Positions 8,226 to 27,239 of a stretch of 32,444 nucleotides of DNA are shown piece after piece. The notes beneath the pieces were generated by a model. The model saw only the letters and a program-made list of their open reading frames with translations. It did not search any database and had not been told where the DNA came from. Within the stretch, counting starts at the first letter, position 1. Every line of letters begins with the position of its first letter. The position numbers and the translations under genes are program-made. The DNA is from Acidobacteriota bacterium (lineage in GTDB: Bacteria; Acidobacteriota; Vicinamibacteria; Vicinamibacterales; CAVVIG01). The DNA lies in the NCBI GenBank assembly GCA_003222535.1, contig QHWJ01000239.1, positions 1-32,444 of the forward strand, written 5' to 3'.

Positions 8226-8309
8226 GTGTCCGGCTTCAGTCGGATACTCAGCCGTGGGGTCCGAGTTCTGGCGGACACGCAGCCGTGGAGTCCGGCTTCA
8301 GCCGGACCC
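8226..8309. repeat. Family-A hairpin array, 31-bp period
   Basis: Three copies of the family-A hairpin start at 8226, 8257 and 8288, exactly 31 bp apart. The last is a perfect AGTCCGGCTTCAGCCGGACC; the first has TTCAG with one stem change and the middle one is degenerate. The spacer CAGCCGTGG is repeated between copies. They occupy the gap between the divergent uup and M29-like genes, directly upstream of the ribosome binding site of the latter. Confidence 0.85.
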
Positions 8310-13041: not shown

Positions 13042-13335
13042 TCAGGGCCTGCCGAACGCCATCCGCGCCCGCTCCGCCTGCAGCTCGTGCAGCAGGCGCA
13101 TCACATTGTAGGCGGACAGCTCGACGAGCACCGTTGTGACCTTGGCATGCAGGTCGTCGCTCAGATCGGCTTCGAGGGTCTTCATCGCCGTAACAAGACG
13201 ATGTTCCTGGCCGCTCAGCTCCTTCTGCGACACCACCCCGTCCGCCAGGGCGCTGGTGAACGAGTCGAGCTTGGTGATCTGTTCCTGAATCATCGGGTGT
13301 TCCGCTGTGTCGTCGAACCAGCTGTGGCGCCGCAT
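13042..13335 (-). CDS. Small helical protein, unknown function
   Basis: I do not recognise this 97-residue protein. Its start is secure: AGGAGG lies 5 nt before the ATG at 13335, the strongest ribosome binding site in the window. The sequence is acidic and mostly alpha helical (EQITKLDSFTSALADG, then a long helix through DDLHAKVTTVLVELSAYNVMRLLHELQAERAR), suggesting a helical bundle. No signal peptide or membrane segment is seen. It lies upstream of, and on the same strand as, no close partner: the AAA gene that follows 5'-to-3' on the plus-coordinate side belongs to another operon separated by hairpin repeats. Confidence 0.78.
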   Translation of the reverse strand: MRRHSWFDDTAEHPMIQEQITKLDSFTSALADGVVSQKELSGQEHRLVTAMKTLEADLSDDLHAKVTTVLVELSAYNVMRLLHELQAERARMAFGRP

Positions 13336-13350: not shown

Positions 13351-13487
13351 GGTCCGAATTCAGCCGGACCGTGATCTCGTACGTAGTGTCCCGCTTCAGC
13401 CGGACCGCGACGGTCCGCTTCAAGGCGGGCCCTGGCGTACGTTTGTGAGATGGCTTCAGCCGTAGGGCACCGCTTCAGCGGTGCCTA
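13351..13487. repeat. Mixed family-A/B hairpin array
   Basis: Family-A copies start at 13351 (GGTCCGAATTCAGCCGGACC) and 13387 (TGTCCCGCTTCAGCCGGACC), 36 bp apart and separated by GTGATCTCGTACGTA. A degenerate copy lies at 13411-13431. A perfect family-B copy, GGCACCGCTTCAGCGGTGCC, occupies 13466-13485 and extends into the TAG stop (13487-13485) of the minus-strand AAA gene. The spacer is the reverse complement of that in the 17414-17533 array, so whole 36-bp units, not only the hairpin, are copied. Confidence 0.9.
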
Positions 13488-15260
13488 GAGTTCCTTCACG
13501 ATTTGCTTGAGCGCGGTGAGCCTTGCCTGCAGCTTCCCGCGCCCGCCTTCGGCCGCCATCTTCTCGAGAATCGCCGGCGGCAAAAACTGACTGTCGGTGC
13601 ATTCCAGCATGGCCGCGGTTTCCTGGAGCTCGCGCTCGAGGCCCTGCGTGGACGGCATGAACGTCGCGACAACGTCGGCCAGCGCCTCGCGCGTCACATG
13701 ATCGGCGCCAGCCAGCAGCGACGTCCGCCAGGCGCGGCCCACCATGCCCTCGATGTCCGCGCCCGACAGCTGGCCGCGCTGCGGAATCGGCGGCACATCC
13801 TCGACCGACAGCTTCGATCCGAGCTTCCCGGCCAGGATCACGAACATCTGCCGGATTTCGCCGTCCTCGGTCGGGTAGAACAGCGGGACGTGCACCTCGG
13901 CCCGCCCCTGGCGCTTCAGATCGATCGGCAGCAGATCCGGACGTGCGGTGAGCAGCATCCAGATGATGCGGCCGCGGTACTGGGTGTCCCCCATCTGCGC
14001 GGCGATCATCCCGAACACGCGGCTGGACGTCCCGGAATCGCCCTCCTGCTCGCGGCTGCCGAGCGCCGCATCCGCTTCGTCGACGACAACCACCACCGGG
14101 CCCATCGCGCGAAGGACCGACAGCACGCGCTCGAGGTTGCCTTCCGTCTCGCCCACGTACTTCGATCGGAAATTCTTGAGGATCACGCACGGGACGCCGA
14201 TCTCGCCGCTCACGCACTGCGCGAGAAACGACTTCCCGGTCCCGACCGGGCCGCACAGCAGATACCCCATCGGCAGCGTGTCGAGCGCGCCGCGCTTGAG
14301 CAGCGCCGCGTCCTCGCGAAGCCGCGCCTTCGCCGCCGCGTGCCCGACGACGGTGTCGAGCGTCCATTTGGGCTCGATGAATTCGAGGAGCCCGCGGCAC
14401 TGTCGCTCGAGCAGACGCTTCTTGAGCGACCGGAAGACGAGCGCATCCAGCCGCTTCCCGCTCTCCCGCGCCGACTGGATCAACACGTTGAGATCGGTGA
14501 GCGAGATGCCGGCGGTCAGCTTCGCGAGCTCGGCCGCCCCGAAATCAGAGTAGTCCTTGAGCGACGATGCCGGTCCGCTCGACGCCTGAATGTAGGTCTC
14601 CCGCTCCTTCTCGCCTGGCAGCGGCACCTCGATCGTCGCCACGTGCGGGTTGCCGGCCAGCCGATCGCTCAAGTCCGCCAGTTTTTCGTCCACGAGCACG
14701 AACGCCATGTTCAGCCGCTTGACGTGCGGGCTCATCGCCCAGTTCAGCATGGTCACCAGCTCAGACGAGGCTTGCAGGCTCAGGCGTCCCGGCTCGCCCG
14801 ACGGAAAGATGTACGACGCTTGATCCATGATCACGGCGACGCTCAGGCGATCGTCTTCGGCGGCCATGATGTTGTTGCGGACGAAGCGATCGAGGATGGC
14901 GAAGGTCGCGGGCGGATCCTTGGAGAGCGCGCTGAGGTCGCCCACCTTGTTGTTCGCGAGGGCCACCATGTCCTTGAGCCGCTTTTCGTCGCGTCCGGCG
15001 AACGCGCGCAACCCCCGGCTGAGGTCGTAGTGCAGCACCAGCGACCAGCGGCCGAACAGCTGCTCGGCCAGAAACTCTGCGAGCACGCCGTACCGCACTC
15101 CGGCGTCGCCCGCCAGGCGAAAGAGGTCGTAGGTGTTGCCGTGGAGGATGAACGCGGCGGTCGTTCCCGAAAAGTACAGGTCCGCGAGCTGGGCCGCCCA
15201 GGCCGGAAACCACTCGGGCAGCTTCTCCGCGGAACGACGGGGCTCCTGATCAGGCGTCAT
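13485..15260 (-). CDS. Tandem AAA protein, Vps4/Ycf46-like motor domain
   Basis: This is a 591-residue cytoplasmic protein with two ATPase-like halves. The N-terminal half (about 30-250, FILHGNTYDLFRL, then VAVIMDQASYIFPSGEPG) looks like a degenerate P-loop domain as in Ycf46-type proteins and lacks a Walker A. The C-terminal half is a complete classic AAA module. It has Walker A GPVGTGKS 337-344, an aromatic pore-loop motif SKYVGETEGN just after, Walker B VVVVDEAD 390-397, a sensor segment LTARPDLLPIDLKRQGR with the arginine finger, and a helical lid. The SKYVGE loop is that of substrate-threading AAA unfoldases and ESCRT-III disassembling enzymes such as Vps4 (family knowledge). It overlaps the preceding membrane-protein gene by 11 bp and is last in the seven-gene unit containing PspA. 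Inference: it remodels the PspA polymer or extracts a membrane client. Confidence 0.87.
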   Translation of the reverse strand: MTPDQEPRRSAEKLPEWFPAWAAQLADLYFSGTTAAFILHGNTYDLFRLAGDAGVRYGVLAEFLAEQLFGRWSLVLHYDLSRGLRAFAGRDEKRLKDMVALANNKVGDLSALSKDPPATFAILDRFVRNNIMAAEDDRLSVAVIMDQASYIFPSGEPGRLSLQASSELVTMLNWAMSPHVKRLNMAFVLVDEKLADLSDRLAGNPHVATIEVPLPGEKERETYIQASSGPASSLKDYSDFGAAELAKLTAGISLTDLNVLIQSARESGKRLDALVFRSLKKRLLERQCRGLLEFIEPKWTLDTVVGHAAAKARLREDAALLKRGALDTLPMGYLLCGPVGTGKSFLAQCVSGEIGVPCVILKNFRSKYVGETEGNLERVLSVLRAMGPVVVVVDEADAALGSREQEGDSGTSSRVFGMIAAQMGDTQYRGRIIWMLLTARPDLLPIDLKRQGRAEVHVPLFYPTEDGEIRQMFVILAGKLGSKLSVEDVPPIPQRGQLSGADIEGMVGRAWRTSLLAGADHVTREALADVVATFMPSTQGLERELQETAAMLECTDSQFLPPAILEKMAAEGGRGKLQARLTALKQIVKEL

Positions 15261-16215
15261 GCCGCAGCACCTGGCGCAGATCGGTTTCGAGGATGGCCGG
15301 CGGTTCTTCGAGCTGGTCGGCCAGCCCGGTGAGATGCTGCAGCTCGCTGACCGCTTTCTCGGTCTGCCGCATGCTTTCGGCGGCCGAGTCCACCTGGCTG
15401 CTGAGGAAATCGGGGTCCTGCCGGTTCACCGACATCTCGGCGAGCGCCTGGATCTTTCCTTCGATGCGATCGAGCTCGATGGAGACGAAATCGGCGTTCT
15501 TCTTCGCGCGCCCGTAGTTGTCGAGACGCAGCTCACACATGGCGAGGCTGTCCTGCAGCGAGCGCACGATGCGGTCGTCACCGCCGCTCTTTTCCGGCTG
15601 GGCTGCCTGGGCGGCGGCGACGTTCTTTCGCAGCTCTGCGAGCCGTGTCGAGATCTCCTGCTCGTTCATCGTCCGCAGAAACCGATCGAGCGCGGCCTGC
15701 GAGAGCAGCAGCCGCAGGAACAGCCAGAGCAGCCGATCGAGGCCGGGCGTCCGGATCTCCTCGACGCTGCTGTTTTGATCGCCGGCCGCGCCGCGGACGC
15801 CGGCGGCGATGCCGCGCATCTCGAGGCAGCGCGCGTGCAGCCGCTCGAACCGTGTGCGCGCCTCGGGGGGCAGGCCTCCGAGCATGGAGACGACCGAGAC
15901 CGGCGGCGGCGGCGGCACCCCGGCGCCCGCGCCGGCCGCCTTTCCAGCGGCGTGGACCTTTGCGTCGATCGCCGCGCGGAATCTCGGAACCGACACCAGA
16001 CCCGTGAGGTAGGCCAGCTCGCCCGCCGCCACCAGCGGCAGCAGGACCGGCGCGAGCGGCGTCAACGCGGCAGCGGCGGTGCCGCCGAGCAGGAACAGCA
16101 GGTTCCACCTGAAGAGGAACGCTTCTTTCAGATAGTCCGACATTCCGGCGCCCTGCGGTGCCTGCGGAGCTGGAGCGACCTGCTTCGCCGGATCGTTACG
16201 AGTCGGTACGCTCAT
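15250..16215 (-). CDS. Two-helix membrane protein with cytoplasmic coiled coil
   Basis: I do not recognise a named family in these 321 residues. After a Pro/Ala-rich N-terminus, two hydrophobic helices form a hairpin (about 37-75, FRWNLLFLLGGTAAAALTPL then LLPLVAAGELAYLTGL). A proline-rich hinge follows (VPPPPP at about 99). The rest is helical, with a hydrophobic patch LLWLFLRLLL at about 163 and a C-terminal coiled coil (LDNYGRAKKNADFVSIELDR, later AESMRQTEKAVSELQHLT). The gene overlaps the AAA gene by 11 bp, so they are probably a functional pair, with this protein anchoring the AAA motor to the membrane. Start ATG 16215 lacks a clear ribosome binding site; ATG 16143 (MSDYLKEAF) is an alternative. 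Confidence 0.72.
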   Translation of the reverse strand: MSVPTRNDPAKQVAPAPQAPQGAGMSDYLKEAFLFRWNLLFLLGGTAAAALTPLAPVLLPLVAAGELAYLTGLVSVPRFRAAIDAKVHAAGKAAGAGAGVPPPPPVSVVSMLGGLPPEARTRFERLHARCLEMRGIAAGVRGAAGDQNSSVEEIRTPGLDRLLWLFLRLLLSQAALDRFLRTMNEQEISTRLAELRKNVAAAQAAQPEKSGGDDRIVRSLQDSLAMCELRLDNYGRAKKNADFVSIELDRIEGKIQALAEMSVNRQDPDFLSSQVDSAAESMRQTEKAVSELQHLTGLADQLEEPPAILETDLRQVLRHDA

Positions 16216-16252
16216 CAGACTGGAGTCATCGGAGAGTCCGGAGGCAACGGGT

Positions 16253-16515
16253 AAACACAGAGAAACGGAGCAACGGAGACACCACGGAGAAGACGCGTGC
16301 GACCAGAGGCCGGCGAAGCCGGCCGCCAGCGATCAGCACGAATCGCGTGCGAACACAAACTGGGGCACGAGAGGGTTTGTGCTCGCGCGCGATTCCTGCT
16401 GATCGCCGCCCGCGCTGCGGGCTGGTCGCACGCGACGCCCTCTGCTCCGTTTCGTCTCCGTATCTTCGTGTCTCCGTGTGAAACCGTTTCCTCCGCGGTC
16501 TCTGCGTCCTCTGGC
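16253..16515. repeat. Large iterated-word inverted repeat within the operon
   Basis: This element fills the 336-bp gap between the ABC ATPase gene and the membrane-protein gene. The left arm (ACACAGAGAAACGGAGCAAC, then GACACCACGGAGAAG, GCGTGCGACCAG, and GATCAGCACGAATCGCGTGC) pairs with the right arm (GATTCCTGCTGATC, CTGGTCGCACGCGACG, TCTGCTCCGTTTCGTCTCCG, TGTCTCCGTGTGAAACC). The apex lies near 16360-16372. No protein-coding gene is visible in this stretch. Confidence 0.85.
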
Positions 16516-16551
16516 AATTCACCGACGTCATTGGGGTTTTCGAGATAGCTT

Positions 16552-17379
16552 CTAGTCGCCGGCGCGCGTCGACGCGGCCAGGTTGTCCATGACGTCGCGG
16601 ATCTCGCACACGCGCTCGACGAAATCGTGTTCGCGCAGCATCTCCTTCGGCGGATGGGTCGGCGGCGGCACCGCCATCTCGCGGATGATCGTCCCCGGCG
16701 CCGACGAGAACACGTACACGCGGTCGCCGAGGTAGATGGCCTCTTCGATCGAATGCGTCACGAAAAACACCGTCGCCTGCGCTTCCTTCCAGAGATCGAC
16801 CAGCAATTCCTGCATGTGCAGCCGCGTCGTCGGATCCAGCGCCCCGAACGGTTCGTCCATGAGGATGATGCGCGGCGACAGAACCAGCGTGCGCGCGATC
16901 GCCACGCGCTGCCGCATGCCGCCGGACAGCTCGCTGGGGTACTTCGTGGCATCGCGCTTCACATCGAGGCCGACTCTGGCGATCCACGCGCGCGCCAGCT
17001 CGCGCCGTTCGGCCACCGGCATCCCGCGGCACTCGAGGCCGAACGCGACGTTGTCCTCGACCGTCCGGTTGTCGAACGAGGTGTAGTCCTGAAACACCAT
17101 GCTTCTGTCCGACCCGGGAGACACGACCGGCCTGCCGCCGACCAGGACCGTGCCTTCGGTGGCCGGGTAGTGCGGGCGCAGCCCCGCAATGAGTCGCAGC
17201 ACCGTCGATTTCCCGCAGCCGGACGGCCCCAGAATGGCGATGAACTCACCCTTGTCCGGCGCGTCCTCCACGGAGAACGTGACGTCGCGAACGACGGTCA
17301 ACGCGCCGAACCGTTTCGTCACCTTGTGGAAATCGACGACGTTGGGGGTGGCGCCGGTCGCGCCCGCTGGCTCGGTCAC
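16552..17379 (-). CDS. ABC transporter ATPase (SsuB/TauB/NrtD type)
   Basis: The 275-residue ATPase has every motif: Walker A GPSGCGKS 51-58, Q-loop MVFQDY about 94-99, signature LSGGMRQ 151-157, Walker B IILMDEP 171-177, and H-loop FFVTHS about 204. The insert-free length and DYTSFDNRTVEDNVAFGLE block fit the nitrate/sulfonate/taurine importer subfamily. It should energise the permease encoded upstream (17531-18352), 151 bp away across a family-A hairpin array. Start GTG 17379 is the only plausible one; no strong ribosome binding site is seen. The substrate is unknown because its partner binding protein is an unusual OmpA fusion. Confidence 0.92.
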   Translation of the reverse strand: MTEPAGATGATPNVVDFHKVTKRFGALTVVRDVTFSVEDAPDKGEFIAILGPSGCGKSTVLRLIAGLRPHYPATEGTVLVGGRPVVSPGSDRSMVFQDYTSFDNRTVEDNVAFGLECRGMPVAERRELARAWIARVGLDVKRDATKYPSELSGGMRQRVAIARTLVLSPRIILMDEPFGALDPTTRLHMQELLVDLWKEAQATVFFVTHSIEEAIYLGDRVYVFSSAPGTIIREMAVPPPTHPPKEMLREHDFVERVCEIRDVMDNLAASTRAGD

Positions 17380-17413
17380 GGTTTGCCGGAACCTGTCTCA
17401 TGAGAGAACGTGA

Positions 17414-17533
17414 TGTCCGCCTTCAGCCGGACCGTCATAGCCCGGCTGAAACCGGACATTGCGTACGAGATCACAGTCCGGCTGAAGCCCGACACTCCGC
17501 GCGAGATCGCGGTCCGGCTGAAGCCCGACACTA
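17414..17533. repeat. Family-A hairpin array, 36-bp period, inside operon
   Basis: Three direct copies begin at 17439, 17475 and 17511 (exactly 36 bp apart), e.g. AGTCCGGCTGAAGCCCGACA, with spacers of the type GCGTACGAGATCAC. One inverted copy, TGTCCGCCTTCAGCCGGAC, lies at 17414-17432. The array begins (minus strand) at the TAG stop of the permease gene and ends near the GTG start of the ATPase gene, so the operon mRNA would carry a row of hairpins between these two partners. Confidence 0.92.
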
Positions 17534-18352
17534 GTCCTCGACAACGCGGTACGGAAACAGCCCCCGCTGAAACCAGAACAGGAGGCGGTCGATGCCGTAC
17601 GCCAGCAGGCCGATGATGATGAGGATCAGGATGATGTGCTCCGACAGGCCGCGCCGCTGGCTCGTCATCAGCAGGTAGCCCAGGCCGTGCTCCGCGTTGA
17701 TCAACTCCGCGAGCATGATGTAGCCGAAGGCCAGGCCGAAGAGATGCCGCAGGCTGTTGTAGATCTCGGGCAGCGCGAGCGCCACGAGCACCTTCCTCAC
17801 GATCTGAAACGACGTCGCCCCGAGCGTCTGCGCCGTTTCGACGTAACGATCGGGCACGCTCGCGATCGCGGCGACCGCGTCCGAGTAGACGAACGGCACG
17901 GTGGCGATGAAGATGAACATCACCTTCTGGGTCTCGTCGATCCCGAACCAGAGGATCGTCAACGGAATCAGCGCGGCGACTGGCAGGTTGCGGCCGAACA
18001 ACGCGAGCGGCGCGGCGCCGGCCTCCGCCACGCGCCACGATCCGGCGATGATGCCGAGCGGGACGCCGACGGCGGTCGCGAGGCCGAACCCGATCAGGAC
18101 GCGCTTCAGCGTCGCCGCGATGCTCTGGAGGAGCGCGCGCTCGTTCAGCAGACTGGGAAAGCTGCGGATCACTTCAGCGGGACTCGGCAGGATGACCGGC
18201 GACACCAGCCGGTTCTCGGCGGCGACGCCGGCCGTCGCGAGCCACCAGATCAGCACGACGACCCCGATTGCCCCCGCGCCGACCAGGCGGCGCGTCATCG
18301 GAGGCGGCGGGATCCGGAGTGCGAACAGCGTCTGATGCGATTCGGGCGACAT
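17531..18352 (-). CDS. ABC transporter permease (SsuC/TauC type)
   Basis: This is a 273-residue inner-membrane permease with about six transmembrane helices, the first at about 23-42 (LVGAGAIGVVVLIWWLATA). The cytoplasmic coupling segment ETAQTLGATSFQIVRKVLVALALPEI carries the EAA-like loop that docks on the ATPase. Family resemblance is to sulfonate, taurine and nitrate importers. Its ATG at 18352 follows the TAG of the substrate-binding/OmpA gene with no spacer (TAGATG), implying coupled translation. Its own TAG stop is the first triplet of a hairpin repeat array. Confidence 0.92.
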   Translation of the reverse strand: MSPESHQTLFALRIPPPPMTRRLVGAGAIGVVVLIWWLATAGVAAENRLVSPVILPSPAEVIRSFPSLLNERALLQSIAATLKRVLIGFGLATAVGVPLGIIAGSWRVAEAGAAPLALFGRNLPVAALIPLTILWFGIDETQKVMFIFIATVPFVYSDAVAAIASVPDRYVETAQTLGATSFQIVRKVLVALALPEIYNSLRHLFGLAFGYIMLAELINAEHGLGYLLMTSQRRGLSEHIILILIIIGLLAYGIDRLLFWFQRGLFPYRVVED

Positions 18353-20089
18353 CTATTTGGGGGCCGCCGTCGCCTCCGCCGGGTAGACCTTGATCTCCAC
18401 CCGCCGGTTCTTCGCGCCGTTCTCCGGATCCGAGGGATCGCCCGGCCGGTCCCATCCGATGCCCGCGGTCGAGAACTGATTGGGCTGCAGCGACGAGAAC
18501 TTCCGGACGAGGGCTTCCTTCACGGCGTTCGCGCGGTTCAACGAGAGCTCCTGCACCAGGCTCTTCGGCACCTGCCCTCTCATCGATCCGTCGGTGTGGC
18601 CCTCGATGACGATGCGTGCCGCGCCGAATTGTCCGGCGAGCTTCCCGACTTCCTCGACGACGAAGGTGACGCTCGGATCGTAGAGCTCCTCCACTTCCTT
18701 GCCGTCCGTCGTGCGCGTGACCTTCTTGCCGAGATCCCACGAGTTCGGGAAGAAATGAATGACGACTGTTTTGGTGAGGATCTCGTTCTTCTCGCCCTGG
18801 ATTGATCCGGCGCTCGCCGGCGCGAAGCGGAAGTCGTACTCGTTCTTCTGGCTGGCGTACTTCGGCTCGGCGCCCAGCTTCTGGATGACGGTGAAATCCA
18901 GCACCTGATCGAACGGCGTCTGCTCGGTCACCGCGTTGATCTTCTTGTAGAGGAAGTACGACGTGGCCCAGGTGCGCTCGAAGTTGGTGGGGTTGTTCTG
19001 GTTGAGGAAGAAGTCGCGGTTCTCGGCGTAGTTCGTCGAGTGCGCGTCGCCGAGCATGCCGAGCGCGTCGCTCTCGGGAATCGAATAGCCGGCCGCCATC
19101 AGCTTGGCGACCTTCGCCTTCGCGTCCTGCCCTTTCAGCTCCTGCATCCCGTCGAAGATGCCGCGCGTCAGCCCCTCCATGATGTCCGCGTTGTCCGTGG
19201 CGAAGTCGGCCCGCGCGAACCACACGTCGGCGATCAGCTTATTGGCCGTCGACGTCGTGACGAGGACGCGGTTGCCCTTCACCTTCTCGAGGTTGTAGAT
19301 GTCGGGCGCCCAGCTCACCACCCCCGCGAGGCGCTTGTCGGCGTTGAACGCGGCCGCCGCCTGGAAGGCGTCCTGCGTGAACTTGAACTCGACTTCGGCC
19401 GGCTGGACGCCGGCGTTGATCAGCGCGTTCAGCACGAAGAAATGCGACGGCGAGTTCTGCGCCAGCACGATCGTTTTCCCTCGTAAATCCGCCATCGTCT
19501 TGATGGTGTCGCGCACGACGATGCCGTCGCCGCCGTTGGACCAGTCGACCTGCTGGTAGACCCGCGGCATGACGCGCGTGTCCTTGCGCAGCCCCTCGAG
19601 GAACAGCGGGAGCATGTCGAGCGTCGCCCAGCCGACGTGGAGATTCCCTGCGGCGTAGGCGTCGCGCATCGCGACCGGATCGTCGATCAGCACCAGCTCG
19701 ATCTTGAAGTCCTTCCCACCGGGGGTCTTCCACACTTTGCCGGGCTTGAAGCCGTTGTTCGCGAAAATGATCGGGCTCCAGCCTGCCCAGACGTTGATCG
19801 CGAACCGGACCGTGCGATCCGCCATCGGCTTGTAGCTGGAGATGCCTTTGACGGCGGGCAGCTTCGCGGTCGCGACGTACTTGTATTCCTTGACGGTCGT
19901 GATCCCCGAGCTGTCGGGCGCCTCGGCGCCGGACTTCATCTGCTTCAGCTCTTCGGTCGAGAACCGCCCGGCCTGTCCAAGGCCGCCGGGTCCGATCGCG
20001 CCGTAGCGCCAGAGCGCGAGGCCGACCAGGCTGATCACCACGAGCAGAACCGCGACGTAGAATGCCGGTCTGGGCTGTCCGTCTGCCAT
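18353..20089 (-). CDS. Membrane-anchored substrate-binding protein fused to OmpA domain
   Basis: The 578-residue protein begins with a single uncleaved-looking helix (AFYVAVLLVVISLVGLALW, about 9-27). Next comes a periplasmic NMT1/SsuA-like binding domain (about 90-330; RFAINVWAGWSPIIFANNGF, DDPVAMRDAYAAGNLHVGWA, DLRGKTIVLAQNSPSHFF). It ends with an OmpA-like peptidoglycan-binding domain with VIEGHTDGSM, LSLNRANAVKEALV and a final NRRVEIKVYP. OmpA domains of this type bind diaminopimelate in peptidoglycan through the Asp and Arg of these motifs. ATG 20089 is chosen for AAGGA 7 nt upstream; TTG 20107 is also in frame. The fusion would tie a solute receptor to both inner membrane and cell wall, which an ordinary importer does not need. 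It sits between the PspA gene and the permease gene. Confidence 0.92.
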   Translation of the reverse strand: MADGQPRPAFYVAVLLVVISLVGLALWRYGAIGPGGLGQAGRFSTEELKQMKSGAEAPDSSGITTVKEYKYVATAKLPAVKGISSYKPMADRTVRFAINVWAGWSPIIFANNGFKPGKVWKTPGGKDFKIELVLIDDPVAMRDAYAAGNLHVGWATLDMLPLFLEGLRKDTRVMPRVYQQVDWSNGGDGIVVRDTIKTMADLRGKTIVLAQNSPSHFFVLNALINAGVQPAEVEFKFTQDAFQAAAAFNADKRLAGVVSWAPDIYNLEKVKGNRVLVTTSTANKLIADVWFARADFATDNADIMEGLTRGIFDGMQELKGQDAKAKVAKLMAAGYSIPESDALGMLGDAHSTNYAENRDFFLNQNNPTNFERTWATSYFLYKKINAVTEQTPFDQVLDFTVIQKLGAEPKYASQKNEYDFRFAPASAGSIQGEKNEILTKTVVIHFFPNSWDLGKKVTRTTDGKEVEELYDPSVTFVVEEVGKLAGQFGAARIVIEGHTDGSMRGQVPKSLVQELSLNRANAVKEALVRKFSSLQPNQFSTAGIGWDRPGDPSDPENGAKNRRVEIKVYPAEATAAPK

Positions 20090-20153
20090 AACTGAATCCT
20101 TGATCAACGCTCAACGCTCAAGTGTCAACTCACACGCTGGGACTTGAGACTTG

Positions 20154-20915
20154 TCAGTTCGTCTGTTTCGCTGAGACCTTGTCCGTCGTCGCCGGTCCCA
20201 GATCCTTCGCCGTCTGGGACACGGGCGTCGTTTCGGGCGACCGCATCCCGAGCTCGACTTCGAAATCCTGGAGCGCCTGCTCGGCGAGCTGGCCCTGCAT
20301 GCGCTCTTCCGCTTTGATCTCGGCGATGCCTTTTTCCGACAGATCGGCCGCCACGCGCACCTTGCCGCGATTCTGATCGATTCTCTGCTGGATGACGCTT
20401 TCGATCTCGCCGAAATCGGTCGTCAGGTTCACGTCGAATGTCTCGGAGAGCTTCGCAATCTCCGCCTCGGCGGAGCTCATCTTCAGTTCCGCGTCGTACT
20501 TCTGGATCTTCTCGCGCAGCTCGATCAGCTTTTCGTTCGCGTGCTGGATCTTCTTCAGGCTGTTGCCGTACGCCGTCTCGTGCATGTTGAGCTGCTGCTC
20601 GTTGGCCGCCAGCTCGCCTTTGGCCTTCTGCAGCTCGAGCGCGAACTTCGACGCGGTCGCCCGATCGCCGGCCTTCAAGTACGCCTTGGTTTCCGCCTCG
20701 AGCTTCTGCACGTGCGATCGGTTGGCCGACACCTGACGCGTCACGCGCTCGACGAGACCGCGGTACTGCTCCAGGCCGCCCCGGCCCTCTTTGAGCTGCT
20801 CCACCGCGCGGTCGTACTCGTAGCGCATTTGCGCGACAGGATCCGCCTCCCAGAAGAGATTTGCGACTTTGTTGATCTGGGCAAGGAAGGACGACCAGAA
20901 CTTGTGAAGAATCAC
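20154..20915 (-). CDS. PspA/IM30 family protein (ESCRT-III-like)
   Basis: This is a 253-residue, almost fully alpha-helical protein. It has a short N-terminal helix (LHKFWSSFLAQINKVANLFW) that could insert into membranes, then long coiled-coil helices, e.g. AQMRYEYDRAVEQLKEG and KFALELQKAKGELAANEQQL. PspA and Vipp1 form helical rods and rings on stressed membranes and belong to the ESCRT-III superfamily (established knowledge). The N-terminus departs from canonical PspA, and the C-terminal tail (residues about 225-253) is Thr/Ser/Lys-rich, so this is a divergent branch. Start GTG 20915 has AGGAG 5 nt upstream. It follows the VWA lipoprotein gene by 27 bp and lies upstream of the binding-protein/OmpA gene. 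Confidence 0.87.
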   Translation of the reverse strand: MILHKFWSSFLAQINKVANLFWEADPVAQMRYEYDRAVEQLKEGRGGLEQYRGLVERVTRQVSANRSHVQKLEAETKAYLKAGDRATASKFALELQKAKGELAANEQQLNMHETAYGNSLKKIQHANEKLIELREKIQKYDAELKMSSAEAEIAKLSETFDVNLTTDFGEIESVIQQRIDQNRGKVRVAADLSEKGIAEIKAEERMQGQLAEQALQDFEVELGMRSPETTPVSQTAKDLGPATTDKVSAKQTN

Positions 20916-20942
20916 GGCGACTCCTTTGACACTACGACGTGG

Positions 20943-21716
20943 TTACTTCTTGACGGGTTCCCGTTCGCCGGCGTCCGGCGCCTCGGCGAGAATTCTTCCC
21001 TGATAGATCGCGTCGAGCGCGCGGCGAAGCTCCGCGCCGGTTCCGGCGCCGATGACGTCGCCGCCGGCGTCTTTCAGAAACGCGAACTTCTGGGGGCTCG
21101 TGTCGAACGCCACGAAATAGACCTGCACGGCGCCTTCGCTCTTGCGAAAGATCTCGCGCGCGACGCGCTCGGGGGGACGACCGCTCGTGTTCTCTCCGTC
21201 GGTCACCACCAGCAAATACTTGCGGAAGACGCCGGCGCGATAGAGATCCGGCCTGGCTTCGCCCAGCGCTTCGCCGATCGCCGTCCCGCCGCCGGGGCGT
21301 GGCAGGCGCGCCAGCGCGCCGCGGACCGCCGCACGATCGTACGGTCGAATCGACAACAGCAGCCGGACGTTGCTCGAGAAACTGTAGATGCCGATCTTGA
21401 TCGGGAAGTCCGGTCGCTTCGCGATGAACGCCTCGGTGGCGTCGAGCGTCGCCTCGATCGCCTCCTGCGCGACGACGTACTTGGGCCGGGAGTCGCCCGG
21501 CGCATCGTCGCGCATCGAGCCGGAGGTGTCGATCAGGATCGCGACGGCGGCGCCGAGACCCTCTTCGACCTCGGCTTGATACGAAGCGGCGGATTCGAAG
21601 TCCCCGCCGGAGCGTGCATCGGCAGACCGGTCACGCCGGCCGTTGGTCCGGCACGCCAGCGTCAACGTCACCAGGGCGGCCATCGCCAGCCCGACAGAGG
21701 CGGTGCGAAGTGGCAT
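20943..21716 (-). CDS. VWA-domain lipoprotein
   Basis: The product is about 257 residues. Its N-terminus is a lipoprotein signal ending LTLAC, so Cys at about position 22 should be acylated. A von Willebrand factor A domain follows, with a complete MIDAS: DTSGSM, a GGGTAIGEAL block supplying the Thr, and VVTDGENTSG supplying the Asp. Such domains bind partners through a divalent cation. ATG 21716 is chosen because it gives a normal-length lipoprotein signal; GTG codons at 21722 and 21731 are in frame and no ribosome binding site discriminates. It is the first gene of the seven-gene unit, divergent from the secreted protein at 21886. In this setting it may be a periplasmic sensor or adaptor. 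Confidence 0.87.
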   Translation of the reverse strand: MPLRTASVGLAMAALVTLTLACRTNGRRDRSADARSGGDFESAASYQAEVEEGLGAAVAILIDTSGSMRDDAPGDSRPKYVVAQEAIEATLDATEAFIAKRPDFPIKIGIYSFSSNVRLLLSIRPYDRAAVRGALARLPRPGGGTAIGEALGEARPDLYRAGVFRKYLLVVTDGENTSGRPPERVAREIFRKSEGAVQVYFVAFDTSPQKFAFLKDAGGDVIGAGTGAELRRALDAIYQGRILAEAPDAGEREPVKK

Positions 21717-21790
21717 GTCTACACGAGACACTAGTTGGCATGCGACGCAGCGTCAAGAGCCAGTGACCGGCCACCAGCGGAAGGGGACGC

Positions 21791-22605: not shown

Positions 22606-22718
22606 TCACGGTGGGACCGCGATTCTCGAAAGGCCTGACAAAAGACACCGGAATGTTCCGGCACACTCCCTGCTCGTAACGTTGAGAGACGATGTTAGAC
22701 TCGTCGAAAGGCGGAGCG

Positions 22719-23348
22719 ATGCCCGACGGGATGGACAAGCTCACCGAACGCGTTCAAGTGGTCGAAGTGAAGGTGGACCACCTGACGGAGCGCGTTCAAG
22801 TCGTCGAACTGCACGTGGCCCACCTGACGGAGCGCGTTCAAGTCGTCGAACTGAAGGTTGACGACCTGTCCACGTCGCTGAATGAACTGTCAGCGTCCGT
22901 GGACGAGCGGTTCGACCAGGTGGACGCGGCGCTCGGCGAGCAGCGCCAGTACACCGAGTTCGCCTTCTCGCGGCTCGACGCGAAGATGGACGCCGGCTAT
23001 GCGCGGCTCGAAGCGAAGATGGACGCCGGCTATGCCCAGCTCGACGCGAAAATGGACGCCGGCTATGCCCAGCTCGACGCGAAAATGGACGCCGGCTACG
23101 CCCGGCTCGATAGGAAGATGGACGCCGGCTATGCACGGCTCGAAGCGAAAATGGACGCCGGCTACGCCCGGCTCGATAGAAAGATGGACGCCGGCTATGC
23201 GCAGCTCGACGCGAAGATGGAAGCCGGCTTCTCCCGCATCGAGCGCAAGCTGGACCAGTTCATCGACGTGCAGCTCCAGACGAACGAGCTCGTCGATCGC
23301 CGGCTAAGCGCGCTGGAAGAAACTCGCGCGCCCGACGCGCAGCCGTAA
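22719..23348 (+). CDS. Coiled-coil protein of 14- and 11-residue repeats
   Basis: The 209-residue protein has no globular domain. The N-terminus holds three near-identical units of LTERVQVVEVKVDH type (heptad-based, 14 residues). A linker containing SASVDERFDQVDAAL follows, then eight consecutive 11-residue units (RLDAKMDAGYA, RLEAKMDAGYA, QLDAKMDAGYA, RLDRKMDAGYA) and a closing unit RIERKLDQFID. Hendecad repeats form slightly right-handed coiled coils, so it should be a long oligomeric rod. No signal peptide or membrane helix is present. ATG 22719 is preferred over ATG 22692 because AAAGG lies 7 nt before it. The function is unknown; such rods act as spacers, tail-fibre-like stalks or cytoskeletal scaffolds. 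Confidence 0.8.
   Translation: MPDGMDKLTERVQVVEVKVDHLTERVQVVELHVAHLTERVQVVELKVDDLSTSLNELSASVDERFDQVDAALGEQRQYTEFAFSRLDAKMDAGYARLEAKMDAGYAQLDAKMDAGYAQLDAKMDAGYARLDRKMDAGYARLEAKMDAGYARLDRKMDAGYAQLDAKMEAGFSRIERKLDQFIDVQLQTNELVDRRLSALEETRAPDAQP
22971..23234. repeat. 33-bp in-frame tandem repeat, eight copies
   Basis: Eight units of 33 bp start at 22971 and repeat every 33 bases, each encoding an 11-residue coiled-coil unit with the invariant block GATGGACGCCGGCTA (the last copy has one change). Units alternate between three variants, so the array has grown by duplication of multi-unit blocks. The repeat length is a multiple of three, so gain or loss of units keeps the reading frame. Confidence 0.95.
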
Positions 23349-24190: not shown

Positions 24191-27094
24191 ATGTCACGGC
24201 AAAAACTCTTCTTCGCGGTCGCGGGCCTCATCATCGCCGCGCTCCCAGTCTTCGCGCAAACCTCAGCCGGCACGATCGGCGGCCGCGTCATTGACGCCAC
24301 AGGCCTCTCGATGCCCGGCGTAACAGTCACTGTACGGGGCGTGGACCTGACCCAGGCTTTCGTCACTGACGGCGACGGCCGGTTCCGCTTTCTCGATCTC
24401 GCGCCCGGGCGGTACAGCGTGACCTCCACTCTCGAGGGCTTCGCGACGAACGTTCGCGAGAACGTCGTCCTCGATCTCGGCAAGCACGTCGATCTGCCGG
24501 TAACCATGCAGATCAGCGCGTTGTCGGAGACTGTGACCGTCACGGCCCCGTCACCGATGGTCGACGCGAAGCAGACCGGCACCGCGACGAACTTCACCAT
24601 CGACGAGCTGTCGAAGATTCCGACCTCCCGCGACCCGTTTTCGCTGTTGCGCTCGGTCCCGGGCGTGCTCGTGGATCGCGTCAACGTCGGCGGCAACGAA
24701 ACCGGTCAGCAGTCGAACTTCGTGACGAAAGGGACCCGGCCGCAGGACGCTGTCTGGACGGTGGACGGCGTGGCGATCACCGACATGGCGCTCACCGGAT
24801 CCTCGCCGACCTATTTCAACTACGACAACTTCGACGCAATCCACGTGGCCACCACCGGACAGGCGATCACGCAGCAGACCGGCGGCGCCGGCCTCAACTT
24901 CGTCGTCAAGCGCGGCACCAACCTGTTCCACGGCGGTGTCCACGCGTACTTCGACAACGACGCGATGGAAGCGTCGAACGTGCCCGCCGAACTGACGGCC
25001 AGGGGCGTCACTTCCGCGACGGCCGACCACACCAGGCAGATCTCTGACTACGCGGGCGACGTCGGCGGGCCCCTTGTCCGCGACACCGCGTGGTTCTATG
25101 CGTCGTACTCGGTTCAGGATGTACGCCTGGTGCGCCGCGCCGGAGCCCTCGTCGACCGCACGCAGCTCGAGAATCCGAACGTCAAGGTGAACTGGCAGGC
25201 GACCCGCAAGGACATGGTCGGCTTCCTGTATTTCGACGGGCTCAAGATCAAGGACAACCGCAGTCCCGGAACATCCGGCATCACCTTCGACGCGCCGACC
25301 GCGACGTTCCATCAGGACAACGCCTACACGGGCACACCGCTTCACGGTCTGTGGAAGCTCTCGGACGACCGCGTGATCGCGCCGAACATGTTCTTGTCGG
25401 CGAAGTACGCGTACTACAACACCGGGTTCCTGCTGACGCCCGAGGGCGGCATGAGCCTGCCAGCCGGGCGCGACCTCACGACCGCGCGGTCGTACGGCTC
25501 CACCGTGCAGAGCTCGAACGTCCGTCCGCAGATGAGCGTCAACCTGGATCTCAATTCGTTCCTGAACGGGCCCGGCGCCGCGCACGACTTCCACTACGGC
25601 TTCGGCTGGCGACGGGTGAACGCCACGACGGGCACGCTGTGGCCCGGCAACGGCATCCTCGCGCTCGCGCAGACGCCGACGACGCAGTTCGCGCAGATCT
25701 TCCGCGAGGGCAGCGGCACGAATCGCACGTCGTACATGGATGTCTACGCGGGCGACACCATCTCGCGAGGCCGCGCGACGATCGACCTCGGCGTTCGCTT
25801 CGACCGTCAGGGCGGCGAGGCGCTGCCGAGCGCCACCGCGGCCAACCCCGCGTTCCCGGCGGTGGTGCCCGGGTCGAACTTCTCTGGCTACGCCGCGCCG
25901 TTCAGCTGGAACAACGTGTCGCCGCGCGCGGGCTTCACCTACGCGCTGGACGAAGCGCGGAAGACCGTGGCGCGCGCCAGCTACAGCCGGTTCGCGGGTC
26001 AGCTCGACTCGGCCAGCGTTGGTTACATGAACCCGAGCTCGTCGGCCGGCGTGGCGGTGTATCGGTGGCTCGACGTGAACAGCGATCATCTCGCGCAGGC
26101 CGACGAAGTGCAGCTGAATCAGTTTGTCGCCGCGGCAAACGGGTTCAACCCGGCGAATCCGACGGCGGTGACGTCGGCGAACCGGATCAATCCGGACCTC
26201 AGGGCTCCGGTGACGCAGAGCGTCGTGGCCGGCCTCGATCGCGAGCTGCGTGCGAACCTCGCGGTGCAGGTCAACTACACCTACACGAAGACGACGAACC
26301 TGCTCGGCAACGCGACGTTTTCGGTGACGCCGCGCGTCGGCGTGTCGATCTCTGACTACGCGGCCGGGCCGACGCTGACGGGCCTGCTGCCCGACGGCAG
26401 CAGCTACGGCATTCCGACGTTCATCGCGAACCAGGCGAAAGTGACGGCGGGTGGGAGCGGATTCCTGCTGACGAACTGGAACGGCTATTACACCGACTAT
26501 CATGGCCTCGAGATCAGCGCGGTGAAGCGGCTGTCGAATCGGTGGATGGGACGCGTGGGCGCCTCGTTCAACAACGCCCGCGAGCACTACGCGCCTGAGG
26601 CGATGTATGACACCAACGGCAACCCCACTCGGACGGTCACGGAGCCGCTCGTCGATGGCGGTCAGTTCGCGCCGCAGAGCACCGGCAACGGCTCGGGGAA
26701 CGTTTACGTCAACGCCAGGTGGCAGTTCAACGCGAACGCGATGTATCGGGCGCCCTACGGCATCGAGGTTGCCGGGAACGTGTTCGGACGGCAGGGATAC
26801 CCGTTCCCGCTGTTCCGCACGCAGGCGCTCGGCGCCGACTCAGGGCTGAGCGTTCTGGTGACGCCCAAGATCGACACGTTTCGGTACGACAACGTCTGGG
26901 ACACGGACCTTCGTGCCGCCCGGACGTTCACGTTCCACACGGTGAGCCTGCGGCTCATCGGCGACCTGTTCAATGTGATGAATGCCAACACGGCGCTGGT
27001 CCGGAACAACAACGTCCTGTCGACGTCCTTCACCGCGCTCGGGCAGAACCTCAGTCCGCGGATCTTCAGAGCCGGGCTCGTCGTCGGGTTCTAA
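24191..27094 (+). CDS. TonB-dependent receptor with carboxypeptidase-regulatory-like domain
   Basis: This is a 967-residue outer-membrane protein. The signal peptide (KLFFAVAGLIIAALPVFA) is followed by an N-terminal carboxypeptidase-regulatory-like beta sandwich (about 27-105, TIGGRVIDATGLSMPGVTV, GDGRFRFLDLAPGRYSV). A plug domain (about 115-250, TSRDPFSLLRSVPGVLVDR, GGAGLNFVVKRGTN) precedes a large beta barrel ending in the terminal Phe of VVGF. This architecture is hugely expanded in Acidobacteriota and probably takes up glycans, peptides or other large ligands with TonB energy. No partner lipoprotein or TonB gene is nearby, so it is an orphan receptor. It has its own promoter-operator region and ends at a large hairpin. 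The ribosome binding site AAAGGA is 11 nt from the ATG. Confidence 0.95.
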   Translation: MSRQKLFFAVAGLIIAALPVFAQTSAGTIGGRVIDATGLSMPGVTVTVRGVDLTQAFVTDGDGRFRFLDLAPGRYSVTSTLEGFATNVRENVVLDLGKHVDLPVTMQISALSETVTVTAPSPMVDAKQTGTATNFTIDELSKIPTSRDPFSLLRSVPGVLVDRVNVGGNETGQQSNFVTKGTRPQDAVWTVDGVAITDMALTGSSPTYFNYDNFDAIHVATTGQAITQQTGGAGLNFVVKRGTNLFHGGVHAYFDNDAMEASNVPAELTARGVTSATADHTRQISDYAGDVGGPLVRDTAWFYASYSVQDVRLVRRAGALVDRTQLENPNVKVNWQATRKDMVGFLYFDGLKIKDNRSPGTSGITFDAPTATFHQDNAYTGTPLHGLWKLSDDRVIAPNMFLSAKYAYYNTGFLLTPEGGMSLPAGRDLTTARSYGSTVQSSNVRPQMSVNLDLNSFLNGPGAAHDFHYGFGWRRVNATTGTLWPGNGILALAQTPTTQFAQIFREGSGTNRTSYMDVYAGDTISRGRATIDLGVRFDRQGGEALPSATAANPAFPAVVPGSNFSGYAAPFSWNNVSPRAGFTYALDEARKTVARASYSRFAGQLDSASVGYMNPSSSAGVAVYRWLDVNSDHLAQADEVQLNQFVAAANGFNPANPTAVTSANRINPDLRAPVTQSVVAGLDRELRANLAVQVNYTYTKTTNLLGNATFSVTPRVGVSISDYAAGPTLTGLLPDGSSYGIPTFIANQAKVTAGGSGFLLTNWNGYYTDYHGLEISAVKRLSNRWMGRVGASFNNAREHYAPEAMYDTNGNPTRTVTEPLVDGGQFAPQSTGNGSGNVYVNARWQFNANAMYRAPYGIEVAGNVFGRQGYPFPLFRTQALGADSGLSVLVTPKIDTFRYDNVWDTDLRAARTFTFHTVSLRLIGDLFNVMNANTALVRNNNVLSTSFTALGQNLSPRIFRAGLVVGF

Positions 27095-27101
27095 CTCCTG
27101 A

Positions 27102-27239
27102 CCTGAAACACGAAACGGACGAAACGGACGAAACGCACGAAACGCACGAAACGCACGAAACGCGAAGAAGAGAATTCTCTTTTTCGTGTTTTTCGTGTTT
27201 TTCGTGTTTTTCGTGGTTTTCGTGGTTTTCGTGTTCAGG
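27102..27239. terminator. Iterated 9-mer inverted repeat, likely two-way terminator
   Basis: The left arm (27102-27174) iterates ACGAAACGG or ACGAAACGC about seven times; the right arm (27175-27239) iterates TTTTTCGTG about six times. The outer ends CCTGAA and TTCAGG pair, and the apex is the perfect palindrome AGAGAATTCTCT at 27169-27180. It spans the gap between the convergent receptor and YgjP-like genes and includes the latter's stop codon. The T-rich right arm gives the plus-strand transcript a U-rich end. Confidence 0.85.

Follow-up and report, generated by a model that had tools for sequence, protein, structure and literature searches.

Ravi et al. (2024) report in their main text operons that bring together PspA, a TM-containing Snf7 homologue, a two-domain AAA protein with an inactive N-terminal copy, an ABC ATPase, a permease and a PBPB-OmpA protein (example protein OGG56892.1), and propose that they remodel membranes in an ATP-dependent way, in connection with solute transport (PMC11237479). 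In a literature search, the full combination of components was found in this main text alone. The neighbourhood and the remodelling idea are thus already published in outline and are not new. In the same year, a structural study suggested that chaperones or PspF might disassemble PspA polymers, by analogy with Vps4 (PMC11746142).

The locus described here lies in a 32,444-nucleotide stretch of acidobacterial DNA, which we call the window. As in the operons described in the main text of Ravi et al., a PspA_IM30 protein is encoded beside a two-domain AAA protein with a degenerate N-terminal copy, and an ABC ATPase, a permease and a solute- and peptidoglycan-binding protein are common to both.

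Results

Gene content and junctions

The original prediction, made from the letters of the window, described a unit of seven co-directional genes. An ORF and Pfam check found all seven at the positions given below, each on the minus strand, and all but the coiled coil gave matches, to VWA_2, PspA_IM30, OmpA and NMT1, BPD_transp_1, ABC_tran and AAA. The Pfam domains were those expected for a PspA/IM30 protein, a solute-binding protein fused to OmpA (SBP-OmpA), an ABC pair and an AAA protein. An eighth conserved gene, also on the minus strand (13042-13335), had been overlooked. It encodes a 97-aa helical protein directly downstream of the AAA gene in the window and in relatives, and homologues come after the AAA gene in a total of 28 loci from acidobacteria and planctomycetes. 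The 97-aa protein had no Pfam match, and a fold search with its model found nothing.

Most junctions are short or overlapping, as proposed: 27 bp separate VWA and PspA, 46 bp PspA and SBP-OmpA, and 0 bp SBP-OmpA and the permease, while the coil and AAA genes overlap by 11 bp. The exceptions are the permease/ATPase and ATPase/coil gaps (151 and 336 bp), which would be compatible with chance neighbours or with several unrelated operons run together. Both gaps are shorter or missing in most close relatives compared, which argues against that reading. They measure just 7 and 6 bp in L033 and are replaced by overlaps in L093, and throughout the seven genes no gap in these two relatives exceeds 34 bp, some junctions being overlaps. 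The long gaps of the window are lineage-specific.

The permease/ATPase gap contains a REP-like palindrome array (17415-17529) that is no conserved part of the unit. Palindromic GTCCGGCTTCAGCCGGAC elements lie in both this gap and the one between the AAA and 97-aa genes; REP-like sites occur in the window at 8228-8307, 13352-13405 and 17415-17529, two of them within operon gaps. There are 13 near matches to GTCCGGCTTCAGCCGGAC in the window versus 0.11 expected, and 99 exact copies in the 8.06-Mb genome versus 0 for a reversed control. Other repeats in the window include two facing 9-bp arrays directly after a TonB-type receptor gene (24191-27094), CACGAAACG x6 and TTTTTCGTG x6 (27109-27163 and 27180-27235), which are nearly reverse complements and could form a long hairpin. 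An ORF at 22692-23348 (218 aa) consists mostly of 11-residue repeats (RLDAKMDAGYA), encoded by 33-bp tandem DNA repeats, and is coiled-coil or apolipoprotein-like.

Conservation of the neighbourhood

Is the gene set kept together in other genomes? We scanned one-genome-per-species contigs with SBP-OmpA as the sole query and obtained 55 loci from at least 8 phyla, distributed among Acidobacteriota, Planctomycetota, Deltaproteobacteria/Myxococcales, Hydrogenedentota, Hinthialibacterota, Sumerlaeota/BRC1, Rifleibacteriota, Kiritimatiellia and two gammaproteobacterial MAGs. Partners were counted only in the 27 loci flanked by 5 kb or more on each side, a fair test because the loci were picked by SBP-OmpA alone. 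The permease, the ATPase and the coiled coil were each present in 26 of the 27, PspA in 25, the AAA protein in 24, the 97-aa gene in 15 and VWA in 6, and every partner ORF match (148/148) lay on the strand of the SBP gene. Three loci have no adjoining AAA gene: G352 and G353, with an AAA gene elsewhere in the genome, and one 8-Mb MAG with neither PspA nor AAA in its genome.

Like content on one strand in the large majority of well-flanked loci, in distant phyla, refutes chance adjacency; the adjacency of these genes is not chance, and we give the reading of chance neighbours or merged operons practically no credence. The co-occurrence outside this genome on which the original prediction depended is therefore found for PspA, SBP-OmpA, the ABC pair, the coil and the AAA protein. 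It is weak for VWA, a variable member of the unit. Among related genomes, 13 of 61 encode a full SBP-OmpA and all 13 encode PspA, versus 2 of the 48 genomes without a full SBP-OmpA; the AAA protein has the same distribution as this set, plus G004 and minus G025 (short contig).

Two further arrangements were seen. In two Riflebacteria loci (L080 and L084), PspA is flanked by two SBP-OmpA genes within the unit. In L123, L124, L126 and L127, a more distant AAA relative is accompanied by VWA, permease, ATPase and several SBP/OmpA-like proteins, and PspA seems to be missing; unlike the other three, L127 has no permease or ATPase match.

Receptor and ABC transporter

SBP-OmpA (584 aa, 18353-20107, minus strand, as for all unit features below) is composed of an N-terminal TM anchor, an NMT1/TauA-type domain and a C-terminal OmpA domain (18386-18721). 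Across 50 homologues its D506 and R525 never vary; they line up with the Asp of GHTD and the Arg of LSxxRA in A. baumannii OmpA, in which these positions, D271 and R286, were shown to bind diaminopimelate (PMC6572160). With the diaminopimelate-binding Asp and Arg of peptidoglycan-binding OmpA-like domains, the domain is predicted to bind the cell wall. Searched against the PDB, the OmpA stretch alone gave nothing at 1e-6, and the full protein obtained an OmpA match. The SBP domain is of the TauA/SsuA type, with TauA (6ssy) as the closest structure and many invariant residues in the solute-binding region.

The permease (273 aa, 17531-18352) is assigned to the SsuC/TauC type (BPD_transp_1) by Pfam and NCBIfam, and the ATPase (16552-17379) to the TauB/SsuB type, with Walker A, signature, Walker B and H-loop intact. 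All NCBIfam equivalog scores of the unit lie far below the SsuABC/TauABC cut-offs (40 versus 304 bits for the taurine receptor, 113 versus 342 for TauC and 198 versus 357 for TauB). The ABC pair and the SBP seem fully equipped for ordinary transport. The locus could be a dedicated NitT/TauT-type importer, in which a wall-tethered receptor catches a scarce solute and PspA, the coil and the AAA protein serve as maintenance factors that shield the membrane where the transporter leaks or is crowded. The resemblance of the SBP to taurine, sulfonate and urea-type receptors, the conserved catalytic motifs of the ATPase, the invariant solute-binding region and the link to solute transport suggested in the main text of Ravi et al. 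(PMC11237479) all speak for an importer; the variants described next speak against it.

A probable core and optional parts

We searched outward from the AAA protein, which is present in 48 of 297 Acidobacteriota genomes, and read 33 neighbourhoods. They form a graded series of full units, units without the ABC pair and trios. Across all the neighbourhoods examined, the following features were seen: (i) L091 and L092 keep SBP-OmpA with no ABC pair adjoining; (ii) PspA, coil and AAA occur alone as trios in L139, L142, L143, L145, L146 and L147; (iii) in the only genome whose SBP-OmpA is an orphan, PspA, AAA and the small gene are clustered separately; (iv) in L208 and in the planctomycete gene order, PspA and AAA are together, apart from the coil and the ABC genes; and (v) a SBP_bac_3-LysM fusion with an N-terminal TM segment (L117:3761-4915) lies near a PspA-coil-AAA set, with an amine oxidase gene between it and the AAA gene.

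The last case is an apparent non-orthologous replacement of SBP-OmpA by a TM-SBP_bac_3-LysM protein, seen once. We therefore read PspA, coil and AAA as the probable core, the ABC pair as optional and the wall-tethered receptor as exchangeable, the receptor swap coming from L117 alone; the exchangeable-receptor reading needs more examples because L117 is a single case and the amine oxidase gene intervenes. The original prediction made ABC ATP hydrolysis a driver of the machine. Since no ATPase or permease adjoins the unit in L091, L092, L117 or the trios, ABC hydrolysis is probably not what chiefly drives the machine. Against the importer reading, PspA, coil and AAA are found with neither the ABC pair nor the receptor adjoining, SBP-OmpA is found without the ABC pair, and the receptor fold is swapped in L117. 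We consider an importer improbable.

AAA protein

The AAA protein (591 aa, 13485-15260) combines a degenerate N-terminal AAA-like part with a classic C-terminal AAA domain. In the C-terminal domain, Walker A and B are intact, the arginine-finger residues are invariant and the pore loop, FRSKYVGE in the window, follows an aromatic Y/W pattern in 37/39 proteins. In the N-terminal part, LHGN stands where Walker A would be and Walker B is degenerate; Walker A is missing there in 38/39. The SKYVGE loop had been taken as the mark of a Vps4-type enzyme, and it proved not to be specific to Vps4: among solved structures VCP/Cdc48 match best, and in NCBIfam CDC48 and PAN do. Neither MIT nor Vps4_C was detected at the Pfam level (E 0.05). 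Because its nearest solved relatives are VCP/Cdc48 and no MIT is seen at that level, we do not class the protein as Vps4; it may nevertheless work like Vps4. Separately, PADLOC gave no strong match to a defence system, its ZorB and IetA matches reflecting the OmpA and AAA domains.

What is the substrate of the AAA protein? Cdc48-like AAA proteins form a class that extracts membrane proteins, and the coil and AAA genes overlap at the AAA start, both in the window and in close relatives. The AAA protein might thus be an assembly or quality-control chaperone for a coil-ABC-receptor complex, with PspA as a passive membrane scaffold and not its substrate. We find this unlikely, as PspA and AAA are paired away from the coil and ABC genes in L208 and in the planctomycete order, trios exist without the ABC pair, and a motif in the PspA tail tracks the AAA protein.

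PspA and its C-terminal tail

The PspA of the unit (253 aa, 20154-20915) is a divergent PspA/IM30 protein of the ESCRT-III superfamily. Its PspA_IM30 Pfam score exceeds the cut-off (38 versus 33.9 bits) and the A5 profile of PspA matches the Vipp1 and sll0617 structures (E about 2e-4 to 5e-4), which supports the proposed ESCRT-III-like nature; a PDB search with the window PspA sequence alone gave no match. A second, classical PspA is encoded in the same genome on contig 225 (L095, 18335-18910), where the match ends at model position 191 in an 826-aa open frame, possibly through a frameshift or fusion.

The C-terminal tail of the unit PspA carries KDLGP (residues 237-241, 20193-20207), a candidate AAA-engagement motif. 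In A5, [KR]x[LIM]G is found in the variable C-terminal tail of 38/38 PspAs, mostly with P next. We counted the strict form, [KR]x[LIM]GP, because the relaxed one also catches a helix-end RQMG in some rows, and found it in 44 of 56 AAA-linked PspAs, in 4 of 4 PspAs with an AAA gene elsewhere in the genome (three from one genus) and in 0 of 32 other PspAs. This count leaves out the PspAs of L104-L107 (30%-identity branch), which end in QKTL, the motif being reduced to a terminal KTL although the AAA gene is present. The motif is also missing in L117 and L147 despite the presence of the AAA gene.

How much does this association mean? In the PspA tree, AAA-linked PspAs fall nearly all on one side, with 2 label changes, and the association therefore rests on few independent events. 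The value of the Fisher test (p 1.5e-19) is not taken as a probability because the association is nearly one tree split and the counts are not independent. The tail motif could reflect clade inheritance. L209, from the linked clade, has lost both link and motif, and L117 has kept the link without the motif. A stronger argument for a functional motif is that it is kept down to about 22% identity; its persistence over more than 75% sequence divergence, in several phyla, is suggestive.

Coiled-coil and VWA proteins

The membrane-anchored coiled coil (P0006; 321 aa, 15250-16215) belongs to no Pfam family. Its AF2 model (pLDDT 87) shows an N-terminal helical hairpin followed by long helices. Foldseek returned nothing below E 0.001 for this model (best match the BAR-type Lsp1, 0.11; CdvB2 at rank 49), a second look with VIA gave only middling helical matches, and a profile comparison of the coil with PspA gave 0.6% probability. 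The coil occupies the position of the TM-Snf7 protein in the operon given in the main text of Ravi et al.; neither Pfam nor the profile and fold searches linked it significantly to ESCRT-III. The sole PDB match of its profile, pneumococcal surface protein A, was rejected as a coincidence of names.

The VWA protein (262 aa, 20943-21731, with an alternative ATG start at 21716) is an optional part. It has an N-terminal hydrophobic segment followed by Cys27, a DTSGS MIDAS motif and a VWA_2 match of 51 bits. It had been described as a lipoprotein, and its lipobox is imperfect in the window (TLA-C). Relatives have a better lipobox in several cases and lack the Cys in a few.

Discussion

What is the function of the unit? 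We propose, at about even odds, that the genes of the locus together specify an ESCRT-III-like machine that remodels bacterial membranes, has a motor of its own and is fitted with a receptor tethered to the cell wall. The divergent PspA would polymerise on the inner membrane near the membrane-anchored coiled coil, and the two-domain AAA protein would engage its flexible C-terminal tail (KxLGP); the C-terminal AAA ring would then thread or remodel PspA subunits, leading to filament turnover. Held in the inner membrane by its anchor and at the peptidoglycan by OmpA, the SBP domain would report a periplasmic ligand or the state of the envelope, a signal that would usually pass through the dedicated ABC pair. 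The VWA and 97-aa proteins would be accessories.

The proposal builds on what the sequences display: gene content, conservation, peptidoglycan-binding residues, intact ABC and AAA catalytic motifs and a conserved tail motif. What we infer is action of the AAA protein on PspA, contact through the tail and gating of the system by the receptor. Of the envelope sensor with AAA-driven PspA recycling first predicted, ESCRT-III/AAA remodelling with a wall-binding receptor is still the best reading, whereas ABC hydrolysis is an unlikely core driver, the AAA protein is not classed as Vps4 and membrane damage is a putative trigger. More tentatively, and with some doubt, we suggest a bacterial parallel to the ESCRT-III/Vps4 cycle, in which the KxLGP tail would resemble a MIM and recruit the Cdc48-like AAA protein, which would disassemble PspA polymers under the control of an exchangeable wall-fixed receptor (SBP-OmpA or SBP-LysM). 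The mechanism proposed for this putative remodelling machine is sharper than before, and testable.

The unit offers a specific, widely conserved candidate motor for the disassembly of bacterial PspA polymers together with a short PspA motif to mutate, which opens the question of PspA disassembly to direct tests. The unit further suggests that membrane remodelling can be coupled to a wall-anchored receptor that spans the envelope.

The main text of Ravi et al. does not include the VWA protein, the 97-aa gene, the PspA tail motif, receptor forms without the ABC pair or the SBP_bac_3-LysM receptor; all but the first are additions of the present analysis to that text, as is the reading of PspA, coil and AAA as a core that is also found by itself. 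The classical Psp system (PspFABC) shares a PspA_IM30 protein at the inner membrane. In contrast to it, the AAA protein of the unit is not PspF, none of PspF, PspB and PspC is among the Pfam matches of the unit proteins, and the unit PspA falls in a divergent clade marked by a tail motif. Importers of the SsuABC/TauABC (NitT/TauT) kind have receptor, permease and ATPase of the same families, whereas the receptor of the unit is membrane-anchored and OmpA-fused and scores are far below the NCBIfam equivalog cut-offs. With ESCRT-III/Vps4 (CdvB/CdvC), the unit has in common an ESCRT-III-superfamily protein, in the unit a putative polymer, with a short C-terminal motif and a classic AAA motor with an aromatic pore loop. 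It differs in that its AAA protein has no detectable MIT, carries a degenerate N-terminal AAA domain and is nearest to Cdc48/VCP among solved structures, and in that it adds a wall-tethered receptor and an ABC pair.
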